Of a stretch of 64,000 nt of DNA, positions 27,224 to 51,738 are shown piece by piece. Position 1 is the first letter of the stretch. Every line of letters starts with the position of its first letter. Origin of the DNA: Astropecten irregularis (taxonomy: Eukaryota > Echinodermata > Asteroidea > Paxillosida > Astropectinidae); contig OZ020251.1 in NCBI GenBank assembly GCA_963971285.1, forward strand, positions 7,068,001 to 7,132,000. The letters run 5' to 3'. The position numbers and the translations under genes are program-made. Below the pieces are notes generated by a model. The model did no database searches. It was not told the origin of the DNA and worked only from the letters and a program-made list of their open reading frames with translations.

Positions 27224-27671
27224 ATAAGCCCATTTCTCGCTTTTAACTACGAAAAAGTCAAAGATTTAAAGTTTCATTTCGAAGATTCCCCTTTTCGAGA
27301 AGGAATATTACAAGGTACAAGAAATACTACTGGAATATATATTAATTTAATTTTATTCGAGAAATTTTGAGGGTACCGAGTTCAATTCTCTTAAAAAGCA
27401 TTATTCACTGCTTTAAAACAAAACGTTCGTTACTGGGAAAGTCATCTCAATACAAGTAGCAATTTAAGTAAATAAATGACAAATATGAGAAAGTCCCTGA
27501 ATCATCAAATCAACTGAAGTGTTTATTTTCAACCTTTGGCTTAATTAAAACACACACCGATAAAAACAAATTAGCAACACAAATTTACATTTAACAAAGA
27601 GAGGCAAGCTATATGTGGAATACACTAACACACAAGAGACATCGCTGCATGATCACACTGTGCGTAGAAGA
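27224..27671. other. Left subterminal unique sequence
   Basis: About 450 bp of AT-rich, apparently single-copy sequence between the terminal repeat and the first palindrome array. A frame runs from satellite into this stretch (27020-27370), but it is a chimera created by the insertion. No gene or motif was recognised. Confidence 0.6.
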
Positions 27672-29102
27672 AAGAGACGCCCTGGCGGTACGCCAATTGG
27701 CGTACCTTCAACAGCCCCAGTGTGTGAGTGCAATACAAGATAGAGACGGCCTAACGGTACGCCAATTGGCGTACCTTCAACAGCCCCAGTGTGTGAGTGC
27801 AATACAAGGTAGACACGGCCTGACGGTACGCCAATTGGCGTACCTTCAACAGCCCCAGTGTGTGAGTGCAGTACAAGATAGAGACGGCCTGACGGTACGC
27901 CACTTGGCGTATCTTCAACAGCCCCAGTGTGTGAGTGCAGTACAAGATAGAGACGGCCTAACGGTACGCCAATTGGCGTATCTTCAACAGCCCCAGTGTG
28001 TGAGTGCAATACAAGGTAGACACGGCCTGACGGTACGCCAATTGGCGTACCTTCAACAGCCCCAGTGTGTGAGTGCAGTACAAGATAGAGACGGCCTGAC
28101 GGTACGCCACTTGGCGTATCTTCAACAGCCCCAGTGTGTGAGTGCAGTACAAGATAGAGACGCCCTGGCGGTACGCCAATTGGCGTACCTTCAACAGCCC
28201 CAGTGTGTGAGTGCAATACAAGGTAGACACGGCCTGACGGTACGCCAATTGGCGTACCTTCAACAGCCCCAGTGTGTGAGTGCAGTACAAGATAGAGACG
28301 CCCAATTGGCGTACCTTCAACAGCCCCAGTGTGTGAGTGCAATACAAGGTAGACACGGCCTGACGGTACGCCAATTGGCGTACCTTCAACAGCCCCAGTG
28401 TGTGAGTGCAATACAAGGTAGACACGGCCTAACGGTACGCCAATTGGCGTACCTTCAACAGCCCAAGTGTGTGAGTGCAATACAAGGTAGACACGGCCTA
28501 ACGGTACGCCAATTGGCGTACCTTCAACAGCCCCAGTGTGTGAGTGCAATACAAGATAGAGACGGCCTGACGGCACGCCAATTGGCGTACCTTCAACAGC
28601 CCCAGTGTATGCCAGTGCAATACAAGATACAGACGGCCTAACGGTACGCCATTTGGCGTACCTTCAACAGCCCCAGTGTGTGAGTGCAGTACAAGATAGA
28701 GACGGCCTGACGGTACGCCAATTGGCGTACCTTCAACAGCCCCAGTGTGTGAGTGCAGTACAAGATAGAGACGGCCTAACGGTACGCCAATTGGCGTACC
28801 TTCAACAGCCCCAGTGTATGCCAGTGCAATACAAGATACAGACGGCCTGACGGTACGCCAATTGGCGTACCTTCAACAGCCCCAGTGTATGCCAGTGCAA
28901 TACAAGTAACAGACGGCCTGACGGTACTCCAATTTGGCGTATCTTCAACAGCCCCAGTGTATGCCAGTGCAATACAAGATACAGACGGCCTGACGGTACT
29001 CCAATTTGGCGTATCTTCAACATCCCCAGTGTGTGAGTGCAATACAAGAAACAGACGGCCTGACGGTACTCCAATTTGGCGTATCTTCAACAGCCCCAGT
29101 AT
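27672..29102. repeat. Palindrome array, left (about 69-bp unit, about 21 copies)
   Basis: Tandem units of about 69 bp each contain the perfect 20-bp palindrome GGTACGCCAATTGGCGTACC followed by a roughly 49-bp spacer (TTCAACAGCCCCAGTGTGTG...). Intact examples start at 27687, 27756 and 27825. One unit near 28300 has lost the left half of the palindrome. The last three units (from about 28921) are degenerate, reading GGTACTCCAATTTGGCGTATC-like sequence with one extra T. Because 69 is 3 x 23, open frames of 342 residues (plus) and 307 residues (minus) run through the array. Both are 23-residue repeats, and I regard them as by-products of the unit length. Confidence 0.95.
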
Positions 29103-31060
29103 ATGCCACTACTAGACTACTAGTCACAGGCTATGGTACAGAAATTTGCCTACGTTCAATAGCCCAATTTCTGGGAGCAAAGAAACTTGATGGGTATGAT
29201 GCCTGTTCTATGTTAACTCTAAATGTGCGGGGCAAATCCAGAAATGTTCTGGTTGTCCACCATAGCCTTTTACTGCAATAAACCTTTTTTTACAGTAAGA
29301 AAACATCATGTCAAGAGAAATGAGCAATGTACGGTAATCGTACATCGTCAACATAATATGAAAACAATATTATACATGTACAATGCCATGTGTAATCATG
29401 TGAAAGCATGTGAACTTTCAAAACATTCCTAAATCATAGTTTAAAAAGTTTAGTATTAGGAATTTTAATTTTGTGCATATATTAACAAAGACGATAATAA
29501 AAGTGAAATTTCTACTTTCTCTTCCGAAGAGGAAGATTACAAACGCACCCACTGTATTATATTTGTAAAGAAAAAAACAGAGTCGTATACATTGTTGTAT
29601 TCATTTACTCAAAAGGAACGGTGCTGTTCGTGGTAAAGCTGACTCCAATTATATATTCCTACATTCGAGCCCTTCGAATCTTCAAACGTCTATAATCCTA
29701 TCTGAAGTTGCAGGCGGTATAGTAATGTCCGGTTTGTCGTCAGGGTGCAGGTTCAGTGTACTGTAACGCACGTGCAGGTGTCCATGAGTCCTCCACTTTG
29801 TCCATCGAGTTTCTGACTGCTTTCCCAGAACAATATTACCTATAGAAAAGATTATCAATAGAAAAAAAAAGAGATGAACAAGAGTAATACTTATTCAAGC
29901 TTTAATTGCCCCCCTAAGCATGATATATAAATGTACGCGCGCAAATTACGCCATAGGCGTACATAATAGGCATACATGTCGATATCAAGATAGCAATAAA
30001 ACCACCAAAACGGCCGTTTTATTAAAACTTTACAAAGCCCCCTTGTATAGGGATTTTAGCCTTACGGTGATGTGCTTCAATTGAATGAGATTTCGCATGA
30101 TTATAAATCAATAAATAATCCCTCAAAAAGGGCTTGATGTTTTAATTCTATTTCTCATGATTAAACATAGTGGATGCAAGTTTATTGTCAGGGCAATGAA
30201 AGTCAATGAAAGTTCAAAACTCATAATGTCGCAGACAATCTACCGCAGTCAGTACCTCCTTACTATTAAAATTGTATCTATCTCTATAAAAACGACATCA
30301 GCAAGGCAAGTCTATTTCTGAGAGCATCGCGTGCATGCAACAGACATAATGTACTCACCCATTTCAAATGTTTCCACAAATGCCACCCTCAGCCCCTGGT
30401 TATGAAGGGTTTCTCTTTCTCAAGTCACGCGTTCAGCCATTCCTGGTAAAGCCGGCACACTGTCAGTTCATCGTCTCTATTGGCAAAATGTAAAACAACA
30501 TGAATTTGAAAAACCGTTTACCTCTTTTACTCGAGCCAATAAAGTTCGTATATAAATTATATGAAAAAAGCGTAACCAACATTATATCTGAAATACGTTT
30601 AAGCGTATTAGGATTGTCGGTCCAACCGATGACCATACGAATGATGCGAAGCAAGAATTTTAATTAATAGTCATTACTAAAAGTCTGAAACGTCATTGGG
30701 AACCCTTCAATCTACATGCGTATAGCACTCTGCCAAAGAATGTTATTTATGGCAAAGAATTCAAAATATATGAACATTTCATCTATCGATTTCATTTGAA
30801 ATCGTGCATGGTGAGTTTGGACAGTTTGGAAAAGCAGTATTAACTGTAGATCTCGGAATGTGGAATTGTGGATGTATGTATAATGCAATTACCGTGTTTG
30901 TATTCACTACTGAATAATATCGGTCAGGACCCATGGTGATAATGACAGACAATTAACTAAATTAAATAGGCCCTTTGCAGGGAGAGTAATAAAAAGGTTT
31001 AATAGAAGCTACTTTGAATCGTACAAAATGACAAAATAAAACTCGAGAATATGACTCTAC
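29103..31060. other. Unique AT-rich sequence without a recognised gene
   Basis: About 2 kb of interspersed AT-rich DNA. It holds only short frames with no recognisable domain. A 14-bp perfect palindrome AAAACGGCCGTTTT lies at 30007-30020. A degenerate relative of the array palindrome (ACGCCATAGGCGTAC) lies near 29948. Confidence 0.55.
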
Positions 31061-32420
31061 TCCTTCTGACTCTACCTCCATGATAACTATGACTTAATTC
31101 TCATATTGGAGTGTTATACCCTTATATACCATGGAGGAAGAACAGTTCCTCCATGACTATACAAATCAAGCCGGTTCTTTGAACTTGGTGCAAGCATAAT
31201 GGAGGTATAGCTCCATGGTGCAAGCATTTCTACCTCCATGGTGCAAGGCACCAAGCCTTAGCCCGTTTGACCCCAATATTTATCGTGTAATTACTAAGCT
31301 AATAACAGCTGATTAGAGAGGGGTAGGTCTATCTTTTCTTCAACCAGTATGGTTGGAACATGGAGGGAGAGCTACAATCAAAGACATAGTATAAGCATAG
31401 AAATCTACCTCCATGCATCAGATCATAAATGTAGCCATTTCTACATCCATGGTTGGTCGAACCATAGAGCAATGACTATGGGCGAATCATATCAATTTCC
31501 AAAACACATGGAGAAAGAATCCAAGTATACTCTCGGACTTACGGCTAGCGGCTAAACATCATGCATGTGACCATGGCGGAAGAAATAGAGTCTATTTCTT
31601 CCTCCATGATGTGACAAGTTATATCATTTATCTCTTGAAAAAACCAACACACCCAACCACAACTTAACAACAAAATCCATTCAAATTACAATGACATTGG
31701 CATGTGGCTTCGTTTGATATTTTACATGTCAAAATGCACAAAATACTACCAACCCAGGTTTACTGAGGATCGGCCCGTAACTTCTGTGTGTTTTAAATTG
31801 ATAAAGACAATTTGTTGTTCTAATTCTTTTATTTATTTATTTATTTATTTATTAACCAAGACCAACAGGAATACAAATCGCCAATTAAAGGATGGTTATT
31901 TAGGCTATATAAACAAACAAGCACAAACACACAAACAAACACTCGGACAGCCAACAGACAGACAAGTAAATTAACAGATAAATAAATCCATATGTACATT
32001 ATATCTATAAAATAGCCCAGTATTATTAGTATTAGCCTAATCAATAGAGCTAGTGAGCTACAAACTTATACCATGGCTTTCATGGAGGCCTCCCTTCCTC
32101 CATGGTTTCAAGCAGTCACCATAATTATGATCGTTTGATCATGGAGAAAACCTACCTCCATGGTTTAATGAGGTCGAGGTAACTAGGAATAGACCAATAA
32201 TCAAATATAATTTTCCTCAATTCAAAAATCTAATTGAAGTTCAGCTTACCTTGATCGTGTCCTCGCTCATTACGATTTACGACAGGCTTTGGATTCTCGT
32301 CCTATCTTGACTTTTGAGTATACATGATTAACGAAAGCTGCGCCATTTCTAAGGCGAGTCATTTTCCTCTCCCATTTTCCAGCACAACAAAATGTGCATT
32401 TTTCTACCTTCATGGTTGGA
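31061..32420. repeat. Cluster of CCTCCATGG motifs and hairpins
   Basis: TACCTCCATGG, its reverse complement CCATGGAGGTA and close variants recur more than a dozen times without a fixed period. Several form hairpins. At 31130-31155 the 10-base arms CATGGAGGAA/TTCCTCCATG are perfect. At 31572-31608 the 17-base arms match at 16 positions. Others lie at 31200-31245, 32070-32106 and 32140-32165. Scattered relatives occur at 35330, 36938-36963, 37090, 37545 and 45905. No protein-coding signal was seen. Confidence 0.75.
31827..31853. repeat. (TTTA)n microsatellite
   Basis: Six or so uninterrupted TTTA units. Short and unremarkable, but a clear simple repeat. Confidence 0.9.
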
Positions 32421-33460
32421 TATGGTGCCTCTCTCTCTACTGATACATCCAGGGAATAACCGGAATTTAGTAGGTTTATGGTGTAACGAGTAGTGTAAAC
32501 ATCAGTCTGTCAGCAAGATGGGGCATGCGATTCATCGCTCTGGAAGTGTAATTAATCATCCCCTGTTACGCAACTTGGAAGGCAAGGTCTCTCCAGCTGT
32601 CATGCACGGAGGAAATTAGAAAGTCCCTAATGATATGCCCATAGAGCAACACCGTACAGACATCTGCTGTGTGTATAATTCTACAATTTAGAAACTGTAA
32701 CCCGGTCTAATAGTTTTGTTAATATAAATGAGAACTGTATACTAAAGGCATTTCTGTTCGAAAAAACGTTGCAATCCACTTTGCAATAATCATACCTGTC
32801 CCATCATATATAGTAACCATAATTTTTTTAACTTGTAAAGCTATATAGTCTCCTTTAATAATAGTTTTATGAACAATCAAAGTCCACTTTCGATGAATAT
32901 ATAGCGTGGTCGCACAATATGGCTTTCGGACTAAGAAGAAATACATGATCAAACTAATCTTGAAAAAATATATATATCGTTCCAAATCACCCCCGACAGG
33001 TATCTTCCCAAGATCTGTGAGTGAGGATTTCCCATTCATATCAATGAATTAAAGGACATTACAATTTTGCTGAGGCATTGCCATGCTCTTCATTGCGAAG
33101 TAATTGTATCCAAAGACAAAACACAAAACTCCTGCACCATCCCATCAACCATTCTCTTCTTCCTCCATCTGCATCAAGGCGTACGACAGTATAATATTCA
33201 ATGGATCAGTAGCGATAATGAGATAAATTTATACCGGTTTGCAAAACACAAACAACGTGGGGAGAGTGGGTCACAGAAAAATGCATATCACATTCTCTAC
33301 AAAATGAATTCTATCTGAGGCTTCTTAGTACTTCTTCATACAAATCAACACATCTGAACATCCACATAAATTGTTAACGGGTGGATTATTAATAACAATA
33401 TCTCAATCTCGTACAAAGATATTTTTTTCTCAAAGAAAGGCAGATTCTTAAGCAAACATT
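32421..33460. other. Unique sequence without a recognised gene
   Basis: AT-rich DNA with short frames (for example 106 residues on the minus strand, 32719-33039) that show no domain. I see nothing functional in it. Confidence 0.5.
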
Positions 33461-33519
33461 GTCAAGAAAGATACTGTAATACTTTAAAAGTCATTAGTGG
33501 AATTACCAGTCCCATTCGG
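33461..33519 (+). repeat. Dispersed repeat copy 1, upstream part (interrupted)
   Basis: GTCAAGAAAGATACTGTAAT...CCCATTCGG resembles the start of copies 2 (43014) and 3 (44773). The copy breaks at 33519, where the nested element begins, and resumes at 36698. Confidence 0.75.
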
Positions 33520-33540
33520 CCCCCTTATAGAAATATAATG

Positions 33541-34060
33541 GTGCTTGCCGGCAAGCTTACAGCAAGCTTGCCGGCAAGCTTGCCGGCAAGCTCCCAGCAA
33601 GCTTGCCGGCAAGCTGGTATTATGCTTGCCGGCAAGCTGGTATTATGCTTGCAGCAAGCTTGCAGGGTTTCAAAAATGCAAATGAGGGCAAGCTTGCTTT
33701 TGCTTGCGGCAAGCTTGCGGCAAGCTTGATTTCAAGTTTGCGGCAAGCTTGTAGCAAGCGTGCAGCAAGCTTGCTTTTGCTTGCGGCAAGCTTGCAGCAA
33801 GCTTGTTTTCAAGTTTGCGGCAAGCTTGCAGCAAGCTTGTTTTCAAGTTTGCGGCAAGCTTGCAGCAAGCTTGTTTTCAAGTTTGCGGCAAGCTTGCAGC
33901 AAGCTTGTTTTCAAGTTTGCGGCAAGCTTGCAGCAAGCTTGTTTTCAAGTTTGCGGCAAGCTTGCAGCAAGCTTGTTTTCAAGTTTGCAGTTTTTATCCT
34001 GGTGCTTGCCGGCAAGCTTGCTCACTAGCAAGCTTGTATTATGCTTGCAGCAAGCTTGTA
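33541..34060. repeat. GCAAGCTTGC palindrome array, left end of nested element
   Basis: Dense, irregular repeats of the perfect 10-bp palindrome GCAAGCTTGC, starting about 20 bp inside the terminal repeat. The outer part has the longer palindrome AGCTTGCCGGCAAGCT. From about 33790 to 33985 a regular 34-bp unit (with TTGTTTTCAAGTTTGC between palindromes) is repeated about five times. Overlapping open frames in several phases come from the repeat. Confidence 0.92.
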
Positions 34061-34154
34061 TACCTTGCATGGCCATTAACAGGTGGAGAAAATACTCTAT
34101 AAAGATTTTAACTGCAATGAAACTCTGGGCAATTTTATTATAATAAAGTTTGCA

Positions 34155-34162
34155 AAAAATTT
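34155..34162 (-). promoter_or_regulatory. Possible poly(A) signal, minus strand
   Basis: AATAAA on the minus strand lies downstream of the gag-like remnant, in CTTCAATAAATTTT context. It is only a hexamer match and could be chance in AT-rich DNA. Confidence 0.3.
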
Positions 34163-34289
34163 ATTGAAGCACTTGTTCACATTTACAGGGATGTGAGTGG
34201 CCACACAAACACAAAATCTAAAAACACCAAGGAAACGCTGTAATTTTTATACTTTTGTACACAGCAGGTATACATAAAAACCTGAAATT

Positions 34290-34940
34290 CTAAAAACGTC
34301 AATCTTGTCCCGCCACTAATTGGCTTCAAGATTGAATGGCAACTTCTTGATAAGGTGCGTGTTCTCGCTGCCATTGTCGAACACTCCCAGGCTACATGTA
34401 GGTGTGGTACGTACCACACTGTGGTGGCTCGTGCTGCATGGACTTTCTCCAGAAAAATCAGAGAAATCTCTTAGGCCCGCTGAATCTCTTGGTGATATCC
34501 TTGGCCACTGTCACAGCTTACTCGTGAAAGCTGTACTGACTACGCTGCTAGCTGTTTCCGTATCTCTCCGTCAGCACCTCTCTTGCCCTGATGTACATAT
34601 GCTTCCTCCGTGCCAATGAGCAGGTAGTGCTCGACGAGATGCTGTGATGTCTGCATCAAGGGGTTGGCTGTTGATAAGCGAATTGAATGAATTTCGGCAC
34701 AGGGGATATTGCAGCTGTTCTCTATTTAACTCTGCTAGTTGGGAGATGCACTTTTCAAGCACTGACGATATCGTCATCCATCTAAATTTCACTCTGGTGA
34801 TGAGACTCTGCAGCACTTAATTTTGCTGGCTGTAGTTGTTCCAGCTTTTTATCCCTCTCTATCCTCATTGCTTCAACCTTGGTGGTCGCCTGCAACTCCT
34901 CTAGCTTCAGTTGCTTTTCTTTGTCGGTAAACTCCAGCTA
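34290..34940 (-). pseudogene. Decayed BEL/Pao-like gag (DUF1759-type) remnant
   Basis: Read on the minus strand, three coding-like segments appear in the order expected for Gag proteins of BEL/Pao retroelements. First is a Lys/Glu/Leu-rich coiled-coil-like stretch (KEKQLKLEELQATTK, about 34855-34925). Next is a segment with WPRISPRD and GLRDFSDF (about 34455-34505). Last is HLIKKLPFNLEA followed by WRDKID (about 34296-34358). The frame is broken by a stop just before the WPRIS segment, by a stop between the KLP and WRDK motifs, and by frameshifts, for example an extra T after GLRDFSDF. It cannot make a protein. The family assignment rests on motif memory only. The remnant may have been captured by the nested element or inserted into it. 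Confidence 0.5.
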
Positions 34941-34941
34941 T

Positions 34942-35330
34942 TCACTCCAGACTTCCAAAAAGATGTATATTCTCAATATATTCCACCGAATTACGAAACA
35001 GGGAGTCACTTGAATGTAGTGGCACATGTGATTCAGCTATCTGCAATTTAATAATACAGAACAGAGAAAAACAATAAGACAACTTGTCTTTGTGTACATA
35101 ACAAATGCAACTTTGCACAATGCATAAATACACATGTAAAAAAGCACAATTTATCCAAACAAAAGTAGGCCTCTGGCCAAAATCACTTGAAATAATGGTC
35201 AAAACTATAATCAAAGTTACTAGCAAACAATAAAGAAATATAAAGAAAGGTTAACTTACCAAGTTGGGGTCTCTATAGGGTCTCAATCAGGGTGAATTAG
35301 GAAGAAGAAAATGTTGGCTTTGAGTCCTAC
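34942..35330 (-). other. Apparent exon-intron-exon remnant, minus strand
   Basis: On the minus strand, CTTG|GTAAGT at about 35260 is a strong 5' splice site. A pyrimidine-rich tract ending TTAAATTGCAG at 35041 is a good 3' splice site, giving a 219-bp intron (35041-35259). The following exon reads IAESHVPLHSSDSLFRNS, stays open for about 33 codons, then stops just before the gag-like segment. The function is unknown. It may be the 5' part of the same decayed transcript unit. Confidence 0.4.
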
Positions 35331-36215
35331 CTCCATGTGGTTGGTTATACACTGTGACAGTGGACAGTGCTGACAAAATGGCTACTTGTATACATGTGGC
35401 ATACCAGAGGTCAGTGTGGTCACTTGACACCTGTGGCATTCCTAAGATAAGTTTGTTTACATTAACTGTCTAATCCTCTTGCACACATGTTTATTGGAAG
35501 AAACATGACTGTGCTGGCTAAAACAATGAATATGCATATGACCTGAGCAAGCTCTTTCAATGAAAAAACTAAAGGAAAAATCTTCAAAAATAATACAGAG
35601 ATAAATGAATGACTAATAATCCTAACTAATAATAACGGTGGTGAATACAATAACAAGGCACTTGACAATTTAAAACACAAAAAAAAACAAGTCATCCAAA
35701 AGCTTGGCAAATCATGAACTATATATTGTAATACTAGCCGAACCCTCACTGCACAGCCTGCTGCTGTGACATTACTTTAAATTATAAAATAAATGCAGAT
35801 CAGTAAAAATGTAGAGCTAGACCTTAAACAATTTTCTTTGAATCCTCATAGGAATTTGGGACAATTTTCAAAATACAATAACTAAACTTTTCATACTAAT
35901 AATTTATGTGTAAGTATGCAGGACTCTTGATTAAAAAACTTAATTGCCAGGAATTCCATAGGAAGAATTAATTTAATAGAAGATAGAACTCTTGATTAAT
36001 TAATTGACCATGCAGGTTGATATCCAAATTAAATTGATAAACTCCAATATCATGCTTTTTGATTTTAAATCCTGGCTTTTTATGTCTGGGAAAACTTTCA
36101 AAATCAAATTACTTAATTAATTATCAAAGTAATTAAACAAAAAGGGGTGTTTGATAATTCTGTCTGGTTGGGTCCTAATTGTGCAGTTAATTGTTTGCAT
36201 TCATATGTTTCTCAT
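35331..36215. other. AT-rich interior of nested element
   Basis: Low-complexity AT-rich sequence with TTAATTAATTA words and one CCTACCTCCATG motif at 35327-35338. The only longer frame (95 residues, minus, 35462-35749) looks like a hydrophobic by-product of AT-rich DNA. No gene was recognised. Confidence 0.5.
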
Positions 36216-36675
36216 GGCAAGCTTGCAAGCTGACAGCAACTTGGTTGCAAGCTTGCAGCCAACCATGCAAGCTTGCAGCCATATTGCTGCAAGCTTGCAA
36301 GCTGACAGCAACTTGGTTGCAAGCTTGCAGCCAACCATGCAAGCTTGCAGTCATGATGCTGGCAAGCTTGCAAGCTTGCAGCCATGATGCTGGCAAGCTT
36401 GCAAGCTTGCAGTCATGATGCTGGCAAGCTTGCAAGCTTGCAGCCATGATGCTGGCAAGCTTGCAAGCTTGCAGCCATGTTGCTGGCAAGCTTGCAAGGT
36501 GACAGCAAGCTGCGCGCTGATCAATACAAGCTTGCCGCAAGCTTGTTGGTAAGCTTGCATAAGCTTGCAGGCTTGCCAGGAGCTTGTCGGGAGCTTGCAG
36601 AAGTACCGTACAAGCTTCTTTAAGCTTGCCGCAACCTTAATAAGCTTGCCGCAAGCTTAATACTAGCTTGCAGCA
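36216..36675. repeat. GCAAGCTTGC palindrome array, right end of nested element
   Basis: The same palindrome core as the left array but with different spacers. There are two copies of a roughly 72-bp unit (with GACAGCAACTTGG), then about four copies of a 31-bp unit (AAGCTTGCAGCCATGATGCT), then degenerate units reaching to about 20 bp from the right terminal repeat. Open frames on both strands are by-products. Confidence 0.92.
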
Positions 36676-36697
36676 ATCTTAATTTTCTATAAGGGGG

Positions 36698-36862
36698 TGC
36701 CCACGTTTTTAGAAAACAGTGAAAAACGCCAACTTTATTTTAAAAAAATGTTTTCGCCGTTATGTTTGGTCTTAAAAAGATCAAAAGTATTTGTAGTCAT
36801 TTCAGGCAGAAAGATGTTAGCCTTGTGGTTCTACCACCATCATCTTTATGTCGTGTAAGTTG
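36698..36862 (+). repeat. Dispersed repeat copy 1, downstream part
   Basis: TGCCCACGTTTTTAGAAAAC...CTACCACCATCATCTT aligns with copies 2 and 3 beyond their TGCCCACTTTTTGAG. It is the most diverged of the three; its version of the GATCTTTTAAAAGATC palindrome is broken. Confidence 0.75.
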
Positions 36863-38985
36863 GTAGTGGTACATCACCTCTACAGTTTTGAGGGCAAGGC
36901 TCTTATCTTTTAACAAAAATGCAGTTGTTATGTAAGACCATGGAGGTAGAAATACCTCAATGGTAAGACCGTAGAGCTAGGGCACTTAACTGATGGGTAA
37001 GACAAGCGACACACCAAGGAAAACCACTGAGCCATGGGTAATTGGTAGCTATAAGATAAACAATGTTTAGGGATCAACTACGCAAGTTAAAGCATGGAGG
37101 TAGGAAAAGAAGTGATGCATGCATGGTTTTCCAAAATAGCAGAATGAAACTAATTTCATTTCCCACACCATGCACCCATTCTCAATGTGTAGAGCCGGCA
37201 GATCGAGAAATATAATAATATATAGGTAATAATATAAAAACCTGACATTATCTTAACGATAAAGAGTTGGATTTACAAGAAAGAAATTGTGTTTCAATAC
37301 TACATCATCCCATCCGTCCATCTCAGCACATAGACTGCAGGATCGGTACAACTAACCTAACCGGGCTAAATGCAAGAAAAATAAACTTAAGACCTAAAAA
37401 AATTTTTTAGCAAGTACATGGACAACACCCATAACCACAAGTAGCTGTATGTATAGGTAGCAGTGTACTTCATGATTTCATTAACTGTACACAGAAATTG
37501 ACTTCACTATAATTATGCTATTACTTCTCACTATATAGTTGTAGCATGGAGGAGGAGAACTAGCTAATTCTTCTTCCATTGCTGTAGGCTTTCAACCATA
37601 GGGAGGTGTTTTTTTTTGACACACACAAAATCACAAAATGCCCTTCCCCAACCCCGAACCTGGAAACACAAGTATACTGATGAATACATAAAAGAGCTTG
37701 ATCAGAAAAGTGATTAGTATGCAGACTCTGAATATGATCTGCGGCACTTGGTTATAAAGCAGGATTAGCGATGAAACTATTTACATAATGTGTTGTATGA
37801 ATAAAAACTAGTATTTGCTTTTACTGCCATGTTTTTAAGCATTTGCTCGCGTTTGTATGAATACAAGTAAAGTGAATGTTTTTACTGGAAAACATTAAAT
37901 CCTAAGAGCATTTATCTTTTACTTTTGAAGCTTTACCTTGACCATTAGTATCTGGTTGGTTTGGTATGAATAAAAAGAGGTAAGTGCTTCAGATGTCGAG
38001 TATTATTTTACGACATGTCATTTTCCAAGATTGGGTTAAATTAGAGCTACCTTGAAAAATGAGAGGAACATAATAATGTACACAATTGTACCATTCATCA
38101 ATGTTTTTTGCCAAGACAAAGTGTTCTTTAAACTCGAAAACTAAACTCGAAACTCGAAAATTCAACTCGAAAAAACAAAACCACCCTCAGTAAGTTGCTA
38201 GTCCTACGTGAAATGAACACAGACATGTACATACACCGTAATATATACACAATTGTTCCTTTCTCACGGAAAAGTGTACTGTAGTTTCAATAGGGTTCAT
38301 TCATCATGAGCCCGAAAATGTACGCACCAGACACACTCACACCGTGGACTTCCTAGCTCCATGCTCACACGCACGCTATACGTAAACAGCATGATTCGAG
38401 ACCTGCATTTTGCACATGTAGGTATATAGGCCTATACAGATTTATTCGGGCAGACGGGCAGCGCTTGGTTGATGGGGTTACAGTTACAGTTACCGACGAA
38501 GTCTAAAGGACATTAATTAGGAGAAGACTAATTTTGTCACAAGTACAGCAGTTATTAGAATCATGGTGACAGGCATAATAAGGCACTAATAATGAGGTTG
38601 AGTGTACGAAACTGTTAATAAATACAATATTGGGGCTCTGACCTGTTTATGCTACTATGCCAGGGAAAACACAGTTATTAAGTTGATGTCCAAGAAAAAC
38701 GGTTTCTGCGTGGTTTTCTGCGGCTTTGTCTTGTTCTTGTTCTGGTTTCTTTTTGATTTCTTTTCGAATTTAGACCCATGATGTTGTTGTCATCCAGTAT
38801 AAGGTAGACTTACGGTTGCAATTAAATGATAATTTTATAAACTTGTGCAGCCCCGCTACGGACCAATAAATGGAGTATCAGGCATCAACCCCACACATTC
38901 CTAAACGTACGTATACTCTTTAGATGGAGGCAAGTACAATACATGTACACCCAACAACTCGCTCCACATATAAAATTAGGAGAGG
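36863..38985. other. Unique sequence without a recognised gene
   Basis: About 2.1 kb of AT-rich DNA. It contains a hairpin at 36938-36963 (CCATGGAGGTA/TACCTCAATGG arms), further CATGGAGG words at 37090 and 37545, and a short cluster of ACTCGAAA words at 38138-38176. No domain-bearing frame. Confidence 0.5.
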
Positions 38986-41300: not shown

Positions 41301-41910
41301 ATAAGAGCATCAACTAGCCCACTACTTCTACAGATGACGACGACTGCAACGTCATAGATAATGGCGAGTGCATCAACCATCCCGCAAGCTCGATTGATGG
41401 ATGAATATGGCATCCAACCATAGCCACGCTGTAGATGGTGTACCGTTGAAAAGTTGCTTCATAACCCTTAATCCAATCCTAACTTTGATCGAACAACTGC
41501 TCCCGGCTAGCCCCTAACCCTAACCCTACCCGACCCTTATACTCATCACTACCCTAACCCTAACCCTAACCCTAACCCTAACCCTAACCCTAACCCTAAC
41601 CCTACACCCGATCTGATCCCAGCTGCCATTAACCTTAATCCCAATTAACCCTTTACTCTAACCCTACTGAGTGTGGTAAACCCTTCTCTGTGGATGCAAG
41701 TGATGAGTGCATCACCCAATAACCTCTTTAGATGGATGGAGGATCTACATCATCCAACCATCAACCCTCACACTGTCACAGACGAAGCAATCATTATAGC
41801 CACCCAACCCCTCTCTTGCCCATCTCCGTAAGGTTGGCGACTGCATGAACCAAAAACCTGCCACCTGGAGGAGAGTGCATCAATCAAGCAGCACCCATCC
41901 TTCTGTACAA
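41301..41910 (+). repeat. Decayed minisatellite units flanking a telomere-like tract
   Basis: Scattered remnants of the 39-bp unit (GATGGATGG, GAGTGCATCA, CATCAACCATCCCGCAA) continue on both sides of the CCCTAA tract. The tract therefore arose inside, or was inserted into, an older extension of the minisatellite. Confidence 0.6.
41551..41604 (-). repeat. Interstitial TTAGGG telomere-type tract
   Basis: Nearly nine uninterrupted CCCTAA units (TTAGGG on the minus strand), with a further two at 41513-41527 and degenerate CCCTAA words to 41665. TTAGGG is the usual animal telomere repeat. The tract is interior, surrounded by decayed minisatellite, so it is not a chromosome end. Confidence 0.93.
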
Positions 41911-43013
41911 AAACCCAATAATGATATAATATAAATAATAAATGAAAAACTTAATATTTCAGAGTTTTTATGCGTCGGTCTTTAGCGCGATCATATTATT
42001 ATTTTATTCGGTTTATCGTCCGTCCCTGGATATTTTTAATCGTGTTCCTGGACACCTATGATAGCGTCAAGCGAGGAAGTTTGGGGGCACAGACTAAATT
42101 CTTGAGGAGTGCGCCCTCTTTCTTTTACCAAACTTTTTAGCTTACGTTCGTTTAGCTTCCACGGGGCAGCCCTGACCTGGGAATGGTCGTGTATGCTGCA
42201 CAAAAAACCGCGAGAAGGCGGGGACGAATTTAAGTTGTGTCGACTCCTGGGTGATAAACGAACGCAGCCTTTATCGCTTCAGAATTAAACGCGAAACCAC
42301 TATGATGAGGTTGCAGATCTCTTATAAAACGCCAAGTTTATTCTTATAGCGCTTGCGGAATTCAATAATCACACATTCCCCATGAGAAACAGGGCTGAAA
42401 TGAAACACTTTTAGGCATACGGTTCACTTGTGAAGTTTGACGGATAGAAACGATAAACTAAAGCGCGATACAGATATCAAACTTTGTCTAAATGTTTGGA
42501 AACATATTGAAAATTGTACAAAATTATCAATTCAAACAAAAGAAATTCAATATGATTTTAAAAACTGTGAAAGTAAAGGCAAATACCAACCTTTTTCTTT
42601 CAACACCTCAATGAACCGAATTGGAAAGAATGATTAATTATGCGTACTTTCTTTTGAAATATGATTTATTCTGTTGTAAATGCAAATTATTCGATTCCTT
42701 TCTGACAAGTCTTGCGCTTGAATGCAATGCAAAGCTATTCTTACAGAAAAACTATAGTTTCTGCTCCACGGTCACATAGTTAGGGTGTGGATTACAGGGG
42801 ATGCAATTTCCCCTCTGCACTTTCAGATCAGAGGGATGGACAACACGATCATCTTTCCACATATTATTTTTATGGAAGGGAACTCTTTTTTCCGTTTTTT
42901 TTCCTTTTTATAATTCACACTTGTATATCTGGGGACTGATGGGAATAATGATCGGGAAAACACCATCAATAATGCTTAAAGGTAGAACTTTGGTGTATGT
43001 CATAGAACTTTCG
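41911..43013. other. Mixed-composition sequence without a recognised gene
   Basis: Includes a higher-GC segment at about 42000-42330 that differs from its AT-rich surroundings. The only frame of note (66 residues, 42437-42637) shows no domain. Nothing functional was identified. Confidence 0.5.
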
Positions 43014-43330
43014 TGGGCAAAAATATCAAGGAAGATACAGTAAAAGTAATCTGTGAAAATGCCAGGCCCATACGGTGCCCACTTTTTGAGAAAACAGTGA
43101 AAAACGGCCAGGATATTTCTGAAGTCTTTTCTCTTTTGTTGATCTTTTAAAAGATCAAAAAGATTTTCGGTCGTTGTTTTACTAATGTCTGGATATTTAC
43201 ACTATTTTAGGTGGAAACAAATTTAACGGTTTGTTTCTACCACCACCATCTTCATACCCTGTAAGTTATACGTAAATTTGTGAAAATTTTCTGTTTTGGT
43301 TTCTTGCCTAAGTATGATACTGCCATAGAG
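43014..43330 (+). repeat. Dispersed repeat copy 2 (uninterrupted)
   Basis: Shares GGGCAAAAATATCAAG, TGCCCACTTTTTGAG, TTTCGGTCGTTGTTTTACTA and CTACCACCACCATCTTCATA with copy 3, and in part with copy 1. It contains the perfect 16-bp palindrome GATCTTTTAAAAGATC at 43141-43156. CCCATACGG|TGCCC at 43067-43080 is the empty site for the nested element found in copy 1. Confidence 0.88.
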
Positions 43331-44097
43331 GAAGGTTTTGTAACCGACATGATGTTTTAGTAATTAGTTCTGCGCTACTGTTTTTACTTGTCTCTTGCGT
43401 GTTCTGCAAGTATAGGCTCTCAAATGTGATTGGTTTTTCGTGATGTAGGTAGGCCTATCATTATGATTGTTTGTGTGTGTATACAGACAGCCCTTTTTGT
43501 GAATTGGGGAAGTTTTATTCTGACTTATCTCTATCGCTAATGTTACTTCAGGAGCCGGAGATGCACCAAAACAATCGTTTCTCCCAGTAACCCATACTAA
43601 TACTAGGCCTATTTCAAATGACAGTTTCTTGTCCGTATTCCAAGGCAGGTATGTTTTGTCATACTAGCCTGTTTGAGCTCTATTGACCATGGCATCACAC
43701 GGCAATGTGAGCGAGTATTGGTCGGGACATGGAGGAAGGAATGGAGGGATGGGTTCAAACGGCCCACCAACCCACTGCTCTCTGACCAGTGTAAAGAGCA
43801 GGGATAGAAGGTCTCCCATACTGGGCGTCCAATGACCGGCAAATAATCTGCGATAATACTCCAAGGTCAGTGGAAGTTCCGAGAATGTGTCGTAGTATAC
43901 TATACGTCTAGTGCATGCATGTAACGACCATTGCGGCTAGCTGGTGGTGTAGCTGGTTGTGTGGGCTCATACACAATGAACTGTACATTACACCCAGCTC
44001 TGAAGTCCTGAACGTATGAAAGGAGATGTGACTGCGACTGTGAGTAATCTTACCAACATTGCGTGCCCGAGTTTGTTTTTGATGCTACATGTATAAG
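43331..44097. other. Unique sequence without a recognised gene
   Basis: Contains TAGGCCTA words and short frames (77 residues, minus, 43609-43842) with no recognised domain. Confidence 0.45.
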
Positions 44098-44572
44098 CAT
44101 TTTTTCTGCAATGGATTATATCTGAGTGAGAATAAACTGATTCCAAGAACGACACACAAGTCAATTAACAAAGTTGGAACAACAACGTAGGCCTACCGGA
44201 AATAAATGGCGCACCGGCCACACTGAACAAGGAGTTTATACTGAACATGGAGGATTATAGAACACCGAGCTGCCCACTCGCTGCACAATACAGAAGTGGG
44301 TATTGAGACTATTTTCCGTAACGACAGTGAGTGTGTGAACTTCCAATTGATGCCAGCGAGCTATTCCTTTTTTTCTGCAAAGGATTTTGACTTTTGTGGG
44401 AACCTGAGTGAGAACGTAGACAAACAACCATGGACAAACTGACATCAAGAACGACATGCACTCCGGCGACAACAACGTAGGCCTCGGAATGGCGCACCCG
44501 CGGCCGCACTGAACTAGACTGCTCGTACTCGCTGCACAAGTGGGTATTGAGACTCTTTCCCGTGATGACAGT
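44098..44572 (+). repeat. Diverged tandem duplication (about 230 + 207 bp)
   Basis: 44098-44328 and 44366-44572 share, in order, TTTTTTCTGCAA.GGATT, CTGAGTGAGAA, CAAGAACGACA, ACAACAACGTAGGCCT, AATGGCGCAC, GCACTGAAC and AAGTGGGTATTGAGACT, separated by small indels. A 134-residue minus-strand frame (44236-44640) spans both halves but has no recognisable domain. Confidence 0.8.
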
Positions 44573-44772
44573 CGGTTTGAACTTTCAAGGCAATCGGTAA
44601 ATTTGAGATTAAGAAGATGTCTGAGTTGTCGTTTTGCCACTGTAGAAACAAGAGTTGTGGAACTTTTAACATGGAGTGGACAGGGTGCACGTACTTTTGA
44701 ACTTAAAATACATCGTTTAAATTTTTAAAGGTAATACCATAATATTGTTTTTATCACTGAAATACAGATTCA

Positions 44773-45078
44773 TGGGCAAAAATATCAAGAAAGATACAGT
44801 AACAGTCCATCCGTGAAACTTTCAGTCCAATAAAGTGCCCACTTTTTGAGAAATCAGTGAAAAACAGCCACATTATTTCTTATTTTTGATCTTTTAAAAG
44901 ATCAAAAAGATTTTCGGTCGTTGTTTTACTAATTTCTGGATAAATACACAATTTCGGGCGGAAAAAAATGTAACGGTATGTTTCTACCACCACCATCTTC
45001 ATACCCTGTAATATGATACATGTACGTAAATCTGTGAAAATTTCTGTTTTGGTTTCTTACCAAAGTATGATACTACCT
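44773..45078 (+). repeat. Dispersed repeat copy 3 (uninterrupted)
   Basis: Begins GGGCAAAAATATCAAGAAAG and shares the same block order as copy 2, including the palindrome GATCTTTTAAAAGATC at 44888-44903 and CTACCACCACCATCTTCATA. It ends near the shared AAGTATGATACT. It provides a second empty site at 44826-44842. Confidence 0.88.
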
Positions 45079-45973
45079 TTAAATATAATTGTTAAAAGAG
45101 AAATCACAAAGCATCATGCAGGAAGGAATCACTCCCATTCCATATTTGGATTCAGTGATCTGACTCAAATTTTACTTTAACAGTGTCTCTCATAATGTTT
45201 TTCAAAAACTGGACACATCTTAAGCATCTTCGTTTTTGGAAACATTTTAATGGTTCGTGAAATTGAAGCACCAAAAATCACTTGGGGTATAATTTTGTAG
45301 AGTTTTGCTTAAGAACTGTATTTTATTGCTCAAACAAAATTGCTTTTAATACAGCATGCACCATCAAAAGGTTGTCATGTTTGAGTTATTTGGAAAACAA
45401 TTCCTGTGGCTATTTGCACAGGCCCTAAACAAAATAATACCCCAAAATGTATTCTTCTACCTCAGCATACTGTAAAACCATTTTGGAAAGAACTCCATGG
45501 CAGAACCTAAGTGTTTTACTCAAGAACTGACTGACTGTTCAGAGGCAATTTTATTTCACTGGTTCAGTTCACTAAAACATTTGTTTATCACTACACACAA
45601 AAGTTAATTAATTATGGCACAGGTTGCAGGTTCTTACTCGGTTAAATTTTCAAAATTGTCTTGGAGTTTTCTGTATCTGTATAATGTGAACTCCTTTTTA
45701 AAGTAAGTTGAGTTTAAAGTGTAATTGATTGAAAAGAATCATGAGTTAACATAATTTTTAGGGGGGGGGCTAGAGGAACTGTTGTGGCACCCCTCAACGT
45801 GGATAACTTGTGAACAATTTATGTGCATGGTGTACACAAAGTGCATAATGAATGTACATTTCCATTTCAAAATTTAGTGGTTTGTTAGCCTAGTTTTGTG
45901 TAATCATGGAAGGACCTTCCTACATGGTTTAATGAAGAAGGGAGGTCCATTGTTTCACAGTATAGCCATTATA
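45079..45973. other. AT-rich sequence without a recognised gene
   Basis: No domain-bearing frame. A G9 run lies at 45761-45769, and a hairpin-like CATGGAAGG...CCTACATGG lies at about 45907-45928, related to the CCATGG motif cluster. Confidence 0.5.
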
Positions 45974-46568
45974 ATTGAATACCTGAATACAACAATGACC
46001 CAAGTCCATGACAAGTGATTTTGAGATAAATAAAAAAAACTTCATATTTTTTTCAATCCTTCAGTTTTATACCTTAAGTCACCAGGGTAAGGTTAACATT
46101 GAAATAGAAATATAAAATGGTATAAGGCATGATAAATAGCATTTACGTTATTATGTGGGGGGGGGGGGTCATTTTGTTTGGTGGACTTGGGTCATTGTTT
46201 GAATCATACACAGTGAAATCATTGTTGAGGAAAGTACACGACAATAAGCTGCTCTAAATGATGTTTATTTACATCAACATTAGTTACACTTACAGCATTG
46301 ATATAAACATTACTAATGTATCATATGTGCATAATACACACATCCTTTGTACCTACACAATCTCACCCCCATCAAGCGGTGGCACTATAACTTGGGTTGC
46401 TGTTGTGTACATGCTAGATTTCTCACGCGCAAAATAGGCATATAGAGCTTGGACTTGGGTTTGTCTTTCACACATCTGGTGGGCCTATGTGTAAACAACA
46501 ACTTCCCATGTCTAACTCAATTTGGCCAAAACCTGGACTTGGGTCATTGTTGTATTCAGGTATTCAAT
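45974..46568. mobile_element. 595-bp MITE-like element with 35-bp perfect TIRs
   Basis: 45974-46008 (ATTGAATACCTGAATACAAC...) is the exact reverse complement of 46534-46568. The flanks carry ATA on both sides (45971-45973 and 46569-46571), consistent with a 3-bp target duplication. An internal copy of TGGACTTGGGTCATTGTT sits at 46182-46199. A G12 run lies at 46157-46168. The 60-residue frame inside (46449-46631) overruns the element and is not convincing. Size and structure fit a non-autonomous MITE; a PIF/Harbinger-like origin is possible but the duplication is not the canonical TWA. Confidence 0.85.
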
Positions 46569-47145
46569 ATATCTCTGCACCAGTGCAATCCAGCATTAAT
46601 CAAGTTACATTATGGACATGCAACTGAATGAAGTATTTATTATATACATTCCAATCCCAGGAATTATTTACCATATACAGCAAATGCTTGATTTCAGTTA
46701 CATGGCTTAAATAATACATGACCTACATGGGGCATTAACAACTGTGGACAATATAGCCCTTGGTTTTGATTAAGTGATTTTGTTTGCATCTGAAAAAAAT
46801 CATATTTATTTGCTCAACAGTAATGACATACAAAATTGGCAGTTTTGTTGTCAACATATAACGTTGTATAGAAGTGTATAGGCCAATGTATGTATAGTCA
46901 TACATGTATATTTGGGTACTTGGTACAAATACATGTATAAATTGTATGTTACATGCATGTACATTTAAGGTTAGCAGGAAGTAAGCCTAGTTCTTGATAT
47001 ATTATTCCTTGTTTAATTGTGGATGAATTTGAAGAGATTTAATTGTAAGTGATGTGCACATATCATAACATTGAAACTAACCCAGAATCCTAAAGGTGGG
47101 TCTCTAGCCCTGCAGAGCAATGTGTTGTATATATACATGTTTTAT
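46569..47145. other. Unique AT-rich sequence
   Basis: Rich in TACATGTA and ATGCATGTA words near 46890-46965. No gene was recognised. Confidence 0.5.
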
Positions 47146-47164
47146 TGATGCTAGGCTGACCATG
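47146..47164 (+). repeat. Inverted bracket of the right palindrome array, left copy
   Basis: TGATGCTAGGCTGACCATG here matches the reverse complement of 51135-51153 at 18 of 19 positions. The whole right array is thus bracketed by inverted copies of part of its own spacer. No target duplication was seen around it. Confidence 0.65.
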
Positions 47165-47214
47165 TTGTACCATAGCTTTATGGTTGTACCGTCTCAGACA
47201 TATGACACAGTTCA

Positions 47215-50200
47215 TCGGCGTACGCCAATTGGCGTACCCTACTGAAGCTAGGCTGACCGTGTTGTACCATTGAGTCATATGGTACACTCCACCGGGGTAC
47301 GCCAATTGGCGTACCCTACTGAAGCTCGACTGACCACCATGTACAATTGAGTCATATGTTACACTCCACCGGGGTACGCCAATTGAAGCTAGGCTGACCA
47401 TGTTGTACCATTGAGTTATATGGTACACTCCACCGGGGTACGCCAATTGGCGCACCCTACCGAAGCTCGATCGACTGACCATGGTGTACCATTGGGGCAT
47501 ATGGCACACTCCAGCAGGGTACGCCAATTGGCGTACCCTGCTGAAGCTAGGCTGACCATGTTGTACCATTGAGTCATATGGCACACTCCACCGGGGTACG
47601 CCAATTGGCGTACCCTACTGAAGCTCGACTGACCATGTTGTACCATTGAGTCATATGGCACACTCCAGCAGGGTACGCCAATTGGCGTACCCTACTGAAG
47701 CTCGACTGACCATGTTGTACCTTAAGTCATAATATTATGGTACACTCTACCGGGGTACGCCAATTGGCGTACCCTACTGAAGCTAGGCTGACCATGTTGT
47801 ACCTTAAGTCATATGGTACACTCAACCGGGGTACGCCAATTGGCGTACCCTACTGAAGCTCGACTGACCATGTTGTACCATTAAGTCATATGGTACACTC
47901 CACCGGGGTACGCCAATTGGCGTACCCTAGCTAGGCTGACCGTGTTGTACCATTGAGTCATATGGTACACTCCACCGGGGTACGCCAATTGGCGTACCCT
48001 ACTGAAGCTAGGCTGACCATGTTGTACCTTAAGTCATATGGTACACTCAACCGGGGTATGCCAATTGGCGTACCCTACTGAAGCTCGACTGACCATGTTG
48101 TACCATTAAGTCATATGGTACACTCCACCGGGGTACGCCAATTGGCGTACTTTACTCTAGCTAGGCTGACCATGTTGTACCATTGAGTCATATGGCACAC
48201 TTCACCGGGGTACGCCAATTGGCGTACCCTAGCTAGGCTGACCGTGTTGTACCATTGAGTCATATGGTACACTCCACCGGGGTACGGCAATTGGCGTACC
48301 CTACTGAAGCTAGGCTGATCATGTTGTACCATTAAGTCATATGTCACACTCCAGCAGGGTACGCCAATTGGCGTACCCCACTGAAGCTCGACTGACCATG
48401 TTGTACCATTAAGTCATATGGTACACTCCACCCTACTCTAGCTAGGCTGACCATGTTGTACCATTGAGTCATATGGTACACTCCACCGGGGTACGGCAAT
48501 TGGCGTACCCTACTGAAGCTAGGCTGACCATGTTGTACCATTAAGTCATATGTCACACTCCACCAGGGTACGCCAATTGGAATACCCTACTGAAGCTCGA
48601 CTGACCATGTTGTACCATTGAGTCATATGGCACACTCCAGCAGGGTACGCCAATTGGCGTACCCTACTGAAGCTCGACTGACCATGTTTTACCTTAAGTC
48701 ATATGGTACACTCCACCAGGGTACGCCAATTGGCGTACCCTACTGAAGCTAGGCTGACCAGGTTGTACCATTAAGTCATATGGTACACTCCACCGGGATA
48801 CGCCAATTGGCGTACCCTACTCTAGCTAGGCTGACCATGTTGTACCATTGAGTCATATGGCACACTCCAGCAGGATACGCCAATTGGCGTACCCTACTCT
48901 AGCTAGGCTGACCATGTTGTACCATTGAGTCATATGGCACACTCCAGCAGGGTACGCCAATTGGCGTACCCTAGCTAGGCTGACCGTGTTGTACCATTGA
49001 GTCATATGGCACACTCCAGCAGGGTACGCCAATTGGCGTACCCTACTGAAGCTAGGCTGACCATGTTGTACCATTGAGTTATATGGCACACTCCAACGGG
49101 GTACGCCAATTGGCGTACCCTACCGAAGCTCCATTGACTGACCATGGTGTACCATTGAGTCATATGGCACACGGCACCAGGGTACGCCAATTGGCGTACC
49201 CTACTGAAGCTCGACTGACCACGTTGTACCATTGAGTCATATGTTACACTCCACCGGGGTACGCCAATTGAAGCTAGGCTGACCATGTTGTACCATTGAG
49301 TTATATGGTACACTCCACCGGGGTACGCCAATTGGCGCACCCTACCGAAGCTCGATCGACTGACCATGGTGTACCATTGGGGCATATGGCACACTCCAGC
49401 AGGGTACGCCAATTGGCGTACCCTGCTGAAGCTAGGCTGACCATGTTGTACCATTGAGTCATATGGCACACTCCACCGGGGTACGCCAATTGGCGTACCC
49501 TACTGAAGCTCGACTGACCATGTTGTACCATTGAGTCATATGGCACACTCCAGCAGGGTACGCCAATTGGCGTACCCTACTGAAGCTCGACTGACCATGT
49601 TGTACCTTAAGTCATAATATTATGGTACACTCTACCGGGGTACGCCAATTGGCGTACCCTACTGAAGCTAGGCTGACCATGTTGTACCTTAAGTCATATG
49701 GTACACTCAACCGGGGTACGCCAATTGGCGTACCCTACTGAAGCTCGACTGACCATGTTGTACCATTAAGTCATATGGTACACTCCACCGGGGTACGCCA
49801 ATTGGCGTACCCTAGCTAGGCTGACCGTGTTGTACCATTGAGTCATATGGTACACTCCACCGGGGTACGCCAATTGGCGTACCCTACTGAAGCTAGGCTG
49901 ACCATGTTGTACCTTAAGTCATATGGTACACTCAACCGGGGTATGCCAATTGGCGTACCCTACTGAAGCTCGACTGACCATGTTGTACCATTAAGTCATA
50001 TGGTACACTCCACCGGGGTACGCCAATTGGCGTACTTTACTCTAGCTAGGCTGACCATGTTGTACCATTGAGTCATATGGCACACTTCACCGGGGTACGC
50101 CAATTGGCGTACCCTAGCTAGGCTGACCGTGTTGTACCATTGAGTCATATGGTACACTCCACCGGGGTACGGCAATTGGCGTACCCTACTGAAGCTAGGC

Positions 50201-51115
50201 TGATCATGTTGTACCATTAAGTCATATGTCACACTCCAGCAGGGTACGCCAATTGGCGTACCCCACTGAAGCTCGACTGACCATGTTGTACCATTAAGTC
50301 ATATGGTACACTCCACCCTACTCTAGCTAGGCTGACCATGTTGTACCATTGAGTCATATGGTACACTCCACCGGGGTACGGCAATTGGCGTACCCTACTG
50401 AAGCTAGGCTGACCATGTTGTACCATTAAGTCATATGTCACACTCCACCAGGGTACGCCAATTGGAATACCCTACTGAAGCTCGACTGACCATGTTGTAC
50501 CATTGAGTCATATGGCACACTCCAGCAGGGTACGCCAATTGGCGTACCCTACTGAAGCTCGACTGACCATGTTTTACCTTAAGTCATATGGTACACTCCA
50601 CCAGGGTACGCCAATTGGCGTACCCTACTGAAGCTAGGCTGACCAGGTTGTACCATTAAGTCATATGGTACACTCCACCGGGATACGCCAATTGGCGTAC
50701 CCTACTCTAGCTAGGCTGACCATGTTGTACCATTGAGTCATATGGCACACTCCAGCAGGATACGCCAATTGGCGTACCCTACTCTAGCTAGGCTGACCAT
50801 GTTGTACCATTGAGTCATATGGCACACTCCAGCAGGGTACGCCAATTGGCGTACCCTAGCTAGGCTGACCGTGTTGTACCATTGAGTCATATGGCACACT
50901 CCAGCAGGGTACGCCAATTGGCGTACCCTACTGAAGCTAGGCTGACCATGTTGTACCATTGAGTTATATGGCACACTCCAACGGGGTACGCCAATTGGCG
51001 TACCCTACCGAAGCTCCATTGACTGACCATGGTGTACCATTGAGTCATATGGCACACGGCACCAGGGTACGCCAATTGGCGTACCCTACTGAAGCTCGAC
51101 TGACCACGTTGTACC
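47215..51115. repeat. Palindrome array, right (about 75-80-bp unit, about 50 copies)
   Basis: Units contain the same 20-bp palindrome as the left array, here usually extended to 22-24 bp by flanking GG/CC and AG/CT pairs. One copy (47512-47543) is a perfect 32-bp palindrome. The spacer is different: CTACTGAAGCTAGGCTGACC...GTACCATTGAGTCATATGGTAC...CTCCACCGG. It holds a second dyad (GTACCAT/ATGGTAC). Some units are shortened (GTACGCCAATTGAAGC near 47375) or lack the palindrome (near 48430). Minus-strand frames of up to 164 residues are by-products of the repeat. Confidence 0.95.
47346..51115. repeat. 1885-bp tandem duplication within the right array
   Basis: 47346-49230 is repeated at 49231-51115, an offset of 1885 bp, including every odd unit: the shortened palindrome unit, the CGCACCCTAC variant, the 32-bp palindrome, the palindrome-less unit and the TTGGAATACC variant. 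I saw no difference in the stretches compared. The duplication is therefore young relative to divergence between units. Confidence 0.92.
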
Positions 51116-51134
51116 ATTGAGTCATATGGCACTC

Positions 51135-51153
51135 CATGGTCATCCTAGCATCA
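51135..51153 (-). repeat. Inverted bracket of the right palindrome array, right copy
   Basis: On the minus strand it reads TGATGCTAGGATGACCATG, 18/19 identical to 47146-47164. It overlaps a small hairpin, AGCATC/GATGCT, at about 51148-51163. Confidence 0.65.
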
Positions 51154-51707
51154 GTAGATGCTGGGAAGACCATGGGTTGTTTGGCTTTATTTAAGATGAA
51201 AGGATTTTTAAAGTTTAATATGATGATTCTGTTTCATTTGAAGTTGTTTGGAAGGATATTGACCATATTTGATGATAAATAAATCAACTGATGAATTGAA
51301 AATAAGATTCTCTATTTGTTTTAGTTTGTGTTCTGTGAATGTTTGTGTTTTGAAGGATGTTTTCTGGTAGTTTAGGGTTTGGATAGATGAAAAGCATTTA
51401 TTCAGCCAAATCATTTCATCATAAACGCCTTTTGATTATTTAGGTGAAAATGTCCAAGAACAATTTGAACAAAATAGAGATGTTGAGTTGTCATGTGTGA
51501 AATCTACACAGGTCCATAAAGGTAAATTTCACATAAATAAGGTTTAGCAAAGGAAAAATACCATGTTATTCGACAAAATCATTCTTGCTGTATAAATCTA
51601 AGAAAAGTTGGTATAGCAATCAATATTGTGTGCTTTTATCTTAAAAATCACCGAATTATCGTCCGTTTGTCTTGTTGTCTCCATGAAAAAGTAAAAAGGT
51701 TGCATTT
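51154..51707. other. Right subterminal unique sequence
   Basis: About 550 bp of AT-rich sequence between the right palindrome array and the right terminal repeat. No gene, and no clear similarity to the left subterminal segment beyond the terminal repeat itself. Confidence 0.55.
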
Positions 51708-51738
51708 CCAATAATTCCAAAATAGTTCCAATCGCGTT
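51708..51738 (-). repeat. Right terminal inverted repeat of the 24.5-kb element
   Basis: Ends with AATAGTTCCAATCGCGTT and is the reverse complement of 27193-27223 at 30 of 31 positions. Confidence 0.93.

Follow-up and report, generated by a model that had tools for sequence, protein, structure and literature searches.

In this analysis we identify a single 20-bp palindrome, GGTACGCCAATTGGCGTACC, as the shared core of two otherwise unrelated tandem arrays that lie near the opposite ends of one large non-coding DNA transposon. We put at about 0.5 the probability that this palindrome is a subterminal cis site, private to the element, of a non-autonomous DNA transposon family, a putative role assigned by analogy with better known transposons; that it is bound by the element's own protein, a suggestion which draws on the same analogy, may be taken as an even bet. 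It is fairly probable that one palindrome stood near each end and that each was amplified separately from its single site, and the paired arrangement of the arrays hints that the palindrome matters to the element. The sequence studied, referred to here as the window, is a stretch of 64,000 nt (C15:7068001-7132000) from a genome assembly of 475.7 Mb in 168 contigs.

Anatomy of the element

Both arrays sit inside a DNA transposon bounded by 32-bp inverted repeats and flanked by a 4-bp target duplication, an assignment of which we are practically certain (Table 1). Its terminal inverted repeat is AACGCGATTGGAACTATTTTGGAATWATTGGA, with one mismatch between the ends over 32 bp, and it is inserted into a 220-bp satellite that makes up most of the window outside the element. 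When the flanks were joined across the insertion (200 bp from each side), the resulting empty site matched the satellite at 99.5% identity over 400 bp. An earlier note on this DNA had confined its description to 27672..51115; the arrays are indeed found there, but the element itself extends further on both sides.

Several other repeats were observed within the element. A 39-bp minisatellite of about 60 copies occupies window positions 38986-41287, mid-element, in a stretch from which sequence can be aligned to each of the remaining full copies as well, and a telomere-like CCCTAA run of 16.5 copies lies at 41512-41609. A perfect 35-bp inverted repeat around 595 bp (45974-46568) is probably a small transposon, and positions 46117-46300 within it are missing from the full copy on C12.

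Table 1. Positions in the window of the transposon, its ends, its arrays and the transposon nested within it
Feature	Positions	Strand	Remarks
Whole non-coding DNA transposon, 24,546 bp	27193..51738	.	Inverted ends, flanking GTAT repeat, joined flanks matching satellite, three more full copies
Target-site duplication GTAT, left copy	27189..27192	.	
Target-site duplication GTAT, right copy	51739..51742	.	
Left terminal inverted repeat, 32 bp	27193..27224	+	One mismatch vs right end
Right terminal inverted repeat, 32 bp	51707..51738	-	
Left array, ~20.8 x 69-bp units	27668..29100	+	17 cores (12 exact) + 3 degenerate; first core 495 bp from left end
Right array, ~50 x 77-bp units	47183..51136	+	48 cores (31 exact); last core ends 653 bp before right end
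Internal duplication of right array, 1,965 bp, first copy	47266..49230	+	Second copy ~49151-51115, 99.64%
Younger nested transposon, palindrome arrays at both its ends	33520..36697	.	29 GCAAGCTTGC sites: 14 left, 15 right

The palindrome arrays

The earlier note had claimed that the same palindrome is amplified near both ends, in about 21 units on the left and about 50 on the right, and both statements hold. At no more than 3 mismatches the window contains 65 occurrences against a mean of 0 in 100 shuffled sequences, 17 of them on the left (27687-28871) and 48 on the right (47219-51085), and TRF delineates a 69-bp repeat with 20.8 units at 27668-29100 and a 77-bp repeat with 49.6 units at 47384-51136. 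Exact palindromes number 43, with 12 in the left array and 31 in the right, and three further degenerate left units at 28923, 28995 and 29065 have an extra base within the core. The right-hand count, correct as a count, needs to be read in light of the 1,965-bp internal duplicate, which leaves about 25 independent cores among the 48. Outside both arrays the window has no palindrome site within 6 substitutions, half-sites are not enriched elsewhere in the element, and ATTGG, which is present in both the palindrome and the terminal repeat, gives no signal (32 occurrences outside the arrays vs 27.6 expected).

The further claim that only the palindrome is common to the two ends, with unit lengths differing and neither array being a copy of the other, was likewise borne out. 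Consensus identity between left and right units ends exactly at 20 bp, and the spacers (49 bp left, 57 bp right) have no detectable homology, whether compared locally (best score 12, with shuffled sequences averaging 13.5, p=0.88) or by global alignment (p=0.68). Each right unit also holds a second inverted pair, TGTACCAT-8-ATGGYACA, for which 37 matches with 6-10 bp between the arms were counted in 47183-51136.

A family of non-coding copies

At no more than 3 mismatches, the terminal repeat occurs at 14 places in the genome, eight of which are accounted for by the paired ends of four full copies measuring 24,546 bp (C15), 24,619 bp (C12), 21,411 bp (C17) and 19,312 bp (C27). Their target duplications are all perfect and all different (GTAT, CATT, TCTG and TTAT, respectively), and the same ends joined to four different 4-bp duplications are those of a cut-and-paste (TIR) transposon. 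The other three full copies carry both arrays, and their best shared segments are about 89-99% identical to the C15 copy, arrays included. In all four, the first core lies 495 bp from the left end, the last core lies 652-653 bp from the right end, and the consensus core is identical at 20/20 bases in both arrays. Array sizes vary, with left/right counts of cores at no more than 4 mismatches of 17/48 (C15), 26/33 (C12), 33/28 (C17) and 15/23 (C27). Diagnostic 13-bp and 5-bp deletions and a 6-bp insertion in the right array are common to all four full copies, indicating that the long right array is older than their spread; that of the C15 copy expanded again later, as its 1,965 bp duplicate at 99.64% attests.

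With regard to the distribution of the palindrome, a genome-wide search based on exact matches only returned 167 copies, all within seven members of this transposon family and none outside it, a result that goes against the earlier note's suggestion of a general host chromatin site. The four full copies hold 43 (C15), 44 (C12), 45 (C17) and 29 (C27), and at least three partial members also carry the palindrome, with 1 exact copy at C17:4.918 Mb, 4 at C19:2.603 Mb and 1 at C17:5.378 Mb. Divergent left ends cluster on C17:4.65-5.38 Mb in one orientation, perhaps through segmental duplication.

No coding member was recovered. The element has no long open reading frame outside repeats, and none of the 10 window frames of 90-162 aa that were scanned attains a Pfam cut-off; no DDE transposase was found in the element, and no partner in the assembly. 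The 14-mer AACGCGATTGGAAC of the end occurs at 13 genome places, eight being the known full-copy ends, and yields no additional facing pair. Whether searched by the terminal repeat at no more than 3 mismatches or by the 14-mer, facing end pairs in the assembly comprise the four non-coding copies only, with no autonomous copy among them, and the family is therefore non-autonomous as far as the assembly shows. Rfam and tRNA scans of the window gave 0 matches, the palindrome and the end had 0 matches in viral contigs, and a literal string search of the open literature did not find the palindrome, end or satellite strings. Target duplications of 4 bp, or of 3-4 bp, are made by the Sola1, Chapaev, Ginger and Academ superfamilies. 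The CENP-B box has the pattern NTTCGNNNNANNCGGGN, which is without a match in the window on either strand, and a CENP-B box satellite was accordingly rejected.

The window provides another instance of the same plan. The younger transposon nested in the C15 element is absent from the other three full copies, has ends CCCCCTTATAGAAA and a target duplication of GG or none, and is unrelated in sequence to its host element; it too has palindrome arrays near both ends, and its GCAAGCTTGC palindromes occur nowhere else in the window.

Conservation of palindrome and spacer

The earlier note had proposed that selection acts on the palindrome. Within-array diversity (pi) was estimated from whole arrays aligned to the unit, such that units were not picked by the palindrome, and p values were obtained by column permutation; earlier unit sets had been picked by the palindrome, which biases them towards conservation, and had dropped units above 85 bp (1/20 left, 4/48 right). 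Among the four full copies, palindrome columns of the right array are about 2.5-fold less variable than the spacer (pi of 0.036, 0.032, 0.039 and 0.035 vs 0.099, 0.092, 0.093 and 0.094; p = 0.025, 0.034, 0.059 and 0.034), the four tests not being independent since the arrays share ancestry. In the left arrays the same comparison is weak and inconsistent, with palindrome pi of 0.051, 0.018, 0.022 and 0.084 vs spacer pi of 0.066, 0.066, 0.062 and 0.093 (p = 0.35, 0.057, 0.048 and 0.37). The C19 fragment shows no difference (0.045 vs 0.044, p = 0.55). In the divergent copy (C17:4.918 Mb) the relation is reversed, the palindrome having a higher diversity than the spacer (0.183 vs 0.081, p = 0.99) on account of its many half-broken centres. 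With all copies pooled, the palindrome segment ranks 27/69 in the left unit and 7/77 in the right.

Constraint on the palindrome is thus plain in the right arrays, doubtful in the left and absent in the decayed copies, and the proposal of selection stands for the first of these and falls for the last. Equal divergence of palindrome and spacer, the outcome that the earlier note had set against selection, was found in some arrays and not in others. Loss of constraint in decayed copies is expected for relics, and equally expected if the palindrome has no function.

Single-site relatives and the origin of the spacers

A relative at C1:22,119,113, which the earlier note had missed, has a right end 79% identical to that of the window and carries one palindrome, GGTACGCCAATTGGTGTAGACC, in a right-type flank. 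TGACCA stands at 58 and 154 of the extracted sequence, flanking the site at 113, and TGACCA is also found in the right-array unit, at the junction of its downstream-like and upstream-like parts. Judged from these letters, the C1 locus may resemble the state before amplification, since the TGACCA positions in the two, around the single site and at the unit junction, are those expected from an initial tandem duplication between short repeats, but its single site could also be a collapsed array. The palindrome there matches at 19/20 aligned bases, with a 2-bp insertion, and its conservation does not clearly exceed that of its upstream flank (33/35). Left ends on C17 near 4.66, 4.77 and 5.10 Mb present between them one whole core, one insert-split core and one half core, with no long array, and a right-end relative on C25 has no core within 5 substitutions across 1.8 kb.

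These relatives suggest a sequence of events. An ancestor would have had a single palindrome near each end, surrounded by unrelated local sequence, and each palindrome would then have been tandemly amplified with its own flank, 69 bp on the left and 77 bp on the right, the right-side amplification perhaps arising by duplication between the two TGACCA repeats around a single site. Separate local amplification of this kind, each site with its own flank, accounts for the unrelated spacers, and the single-site relative may in this way explain them. Least certain are the later steps, in which the palindrome would be recognized as a dimer by a transposase or partner protein supplied in trans, and the arrays would be retained since more sites compete better for that protein. 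Both the binding role and the reason for amplification are proposed by analogy with the subterminal repeats of plant CACTA elements, which are bound by TnpA-like proteins (PMC2613891).

Comparison with known systems

Among the closest known systems, CACTA (En/Spm) elements resemble this one in having short inverted ends and, towards each end, short motifs whose copy numbers are unequal; these motifs can pair as palindromes and are bound by a TnpA-like protein (PMC2613891), and some CACTA elements contain satellite arrays, as here (PMC8978399). The element described here nevertheless differs in its unit, a satellite repeat of 69 or 77 bp built on a single 20-bp palindrome, and its ends AACGCGATTGG and duplication of 4 bp, not 3, rule out CACTA/EnSpm. 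Galileo and other Foldback-like elements also have tandem repeats of variable number at both ends (PMC4168063), but in Galileo the repeats lie within long inverted repeats, the ends are homologous and the duplication is 7-8 bp, whereas the ends here share 32 bp and the palindrome only; the 4-bp duplication, 32-bp ends and non-homologous arrays rule out Galileo and the P superfamily. The Helentron-type non-autonomous elements (HINE) of oyster resemble our element as non-coding mobile elements with satellite-like arrays and a palindrome (PMC7492417), but ours possesses terminal inverted repeats and duplicates its target site, which excludes a Helitron or Helentron, and the palindrome recurs in every unit at both ends. 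Finally, nematode satellites with a 17-bp CENP-B-like box are diverged tandem repeats that share one short motif (PMC3694981); they are free satellites at 32-64% identity, whereas here two arrays in one transposon have no similarity beyond a 20-bp perfect palindrome.

Alternative explanations

The main rival, and the strongest among the alternatives, holds that a hairpin- or cruciform-prone palindrome causes breaks and slippage and so seeds arrays wherever it occurs, the arrays being passengers with no binding function; we regard this as possible but doubtful. All eight unique array deletions of at least 8 bp, a cut-off set after the list had been viewed, overlap the palindrome (chance product 0.003), and several have a breakpoint in its middle. 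An 8-bp stem (-8.0 kcal/mol) can form in the core, the limited constraint in left arrays and its absence in decayed copies point the same way, and a clam satellite whose breakpoints fall in its palindromes offers a precedent (PMC5139131). However, apart from the post hoc cut-off, the palindrome is touched in only 3 of the 6 unique deletions of 3-7 bp, and whole units fold little below shuffles (left -10.4 vs -9.6, sd 2.4; right -13.6 vs -10.7, sd 2.7). Among 11 variant types there is no compensated double change that keeps the palindrome, which indicates that hairpin-templated repair is not what maintains it. A hairpin seed alone also leaves unexplained why the identical 20 bases lie near both ends; a putative cis site of the element remains our preferred reading.

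Binding by a host chromatin protein, recombinase or CENP-B-like protein, with the arrays as small satellites under host selection, is unlikely: unrelated nematode satellites with a common 17-bp box (PMC3694981) and the location of the C15 element in a large satellite would accord with it, but every exact site is private to the family and the window lacks the CENP-B box pattern. Slightly less credible still is that the palindrome alone was copied from end to end by conversion or tiny insertion and has no role. The halt of consensus identity at exactly 20 bp would fit, but a 20-bp copy event with exact edges is required, and in relatives at a divergence of about 20% or more the site is already present at a right end and at left ends, so that any such copying is old. 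The least credible proposal, which we consider highly improbable, is that the palindrome serves chiefly as an insertion target for other transposons. It derives from two different inverted-repeat inserts in C17 relatives that interrupt the palindrome precisely at the AT in its middle; yet no such insert occurs in any array of the four full copies, and the family of the second (1,041 ends matching a pattern that captures roughly half of the ends) has A before AT in 96 and C before AT in 62 among 100 ends listed. That family favours CAATTG-like sites anywhere and the palindrome happens to contain CAATTG, so its insertion says nothing special about the palindrome, and for this second insert the proposal is largely refuted by the CAAT preference of its own family.

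Implications

Proposals that bound motifs help satellite arrays to start have so far come mostly from comparing unrelated satellites. One speculative extension, which we hold to be rather improbable, is that a bound palindrome, and not the sequence amplified, starts a satellite when the transposase bound to it cleaves or re-replicates DNA, in which case the palindrome-centred deletions would be traces of the enzyme. On that view the element would have carried out one experiment in duplicate, the bound palindrome at each end seeding an independent satellite from adjacent DNA. That the same motif apparently seeded two unrelated arrays in one element provides an internal replicate for this seed hypothesis, and the single-site relative in the same genome provides its before-state. 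Furthermore, the palindrome is a specific candidate for the site at which a protein acts in trans on this giant non-autonomous transposon family.
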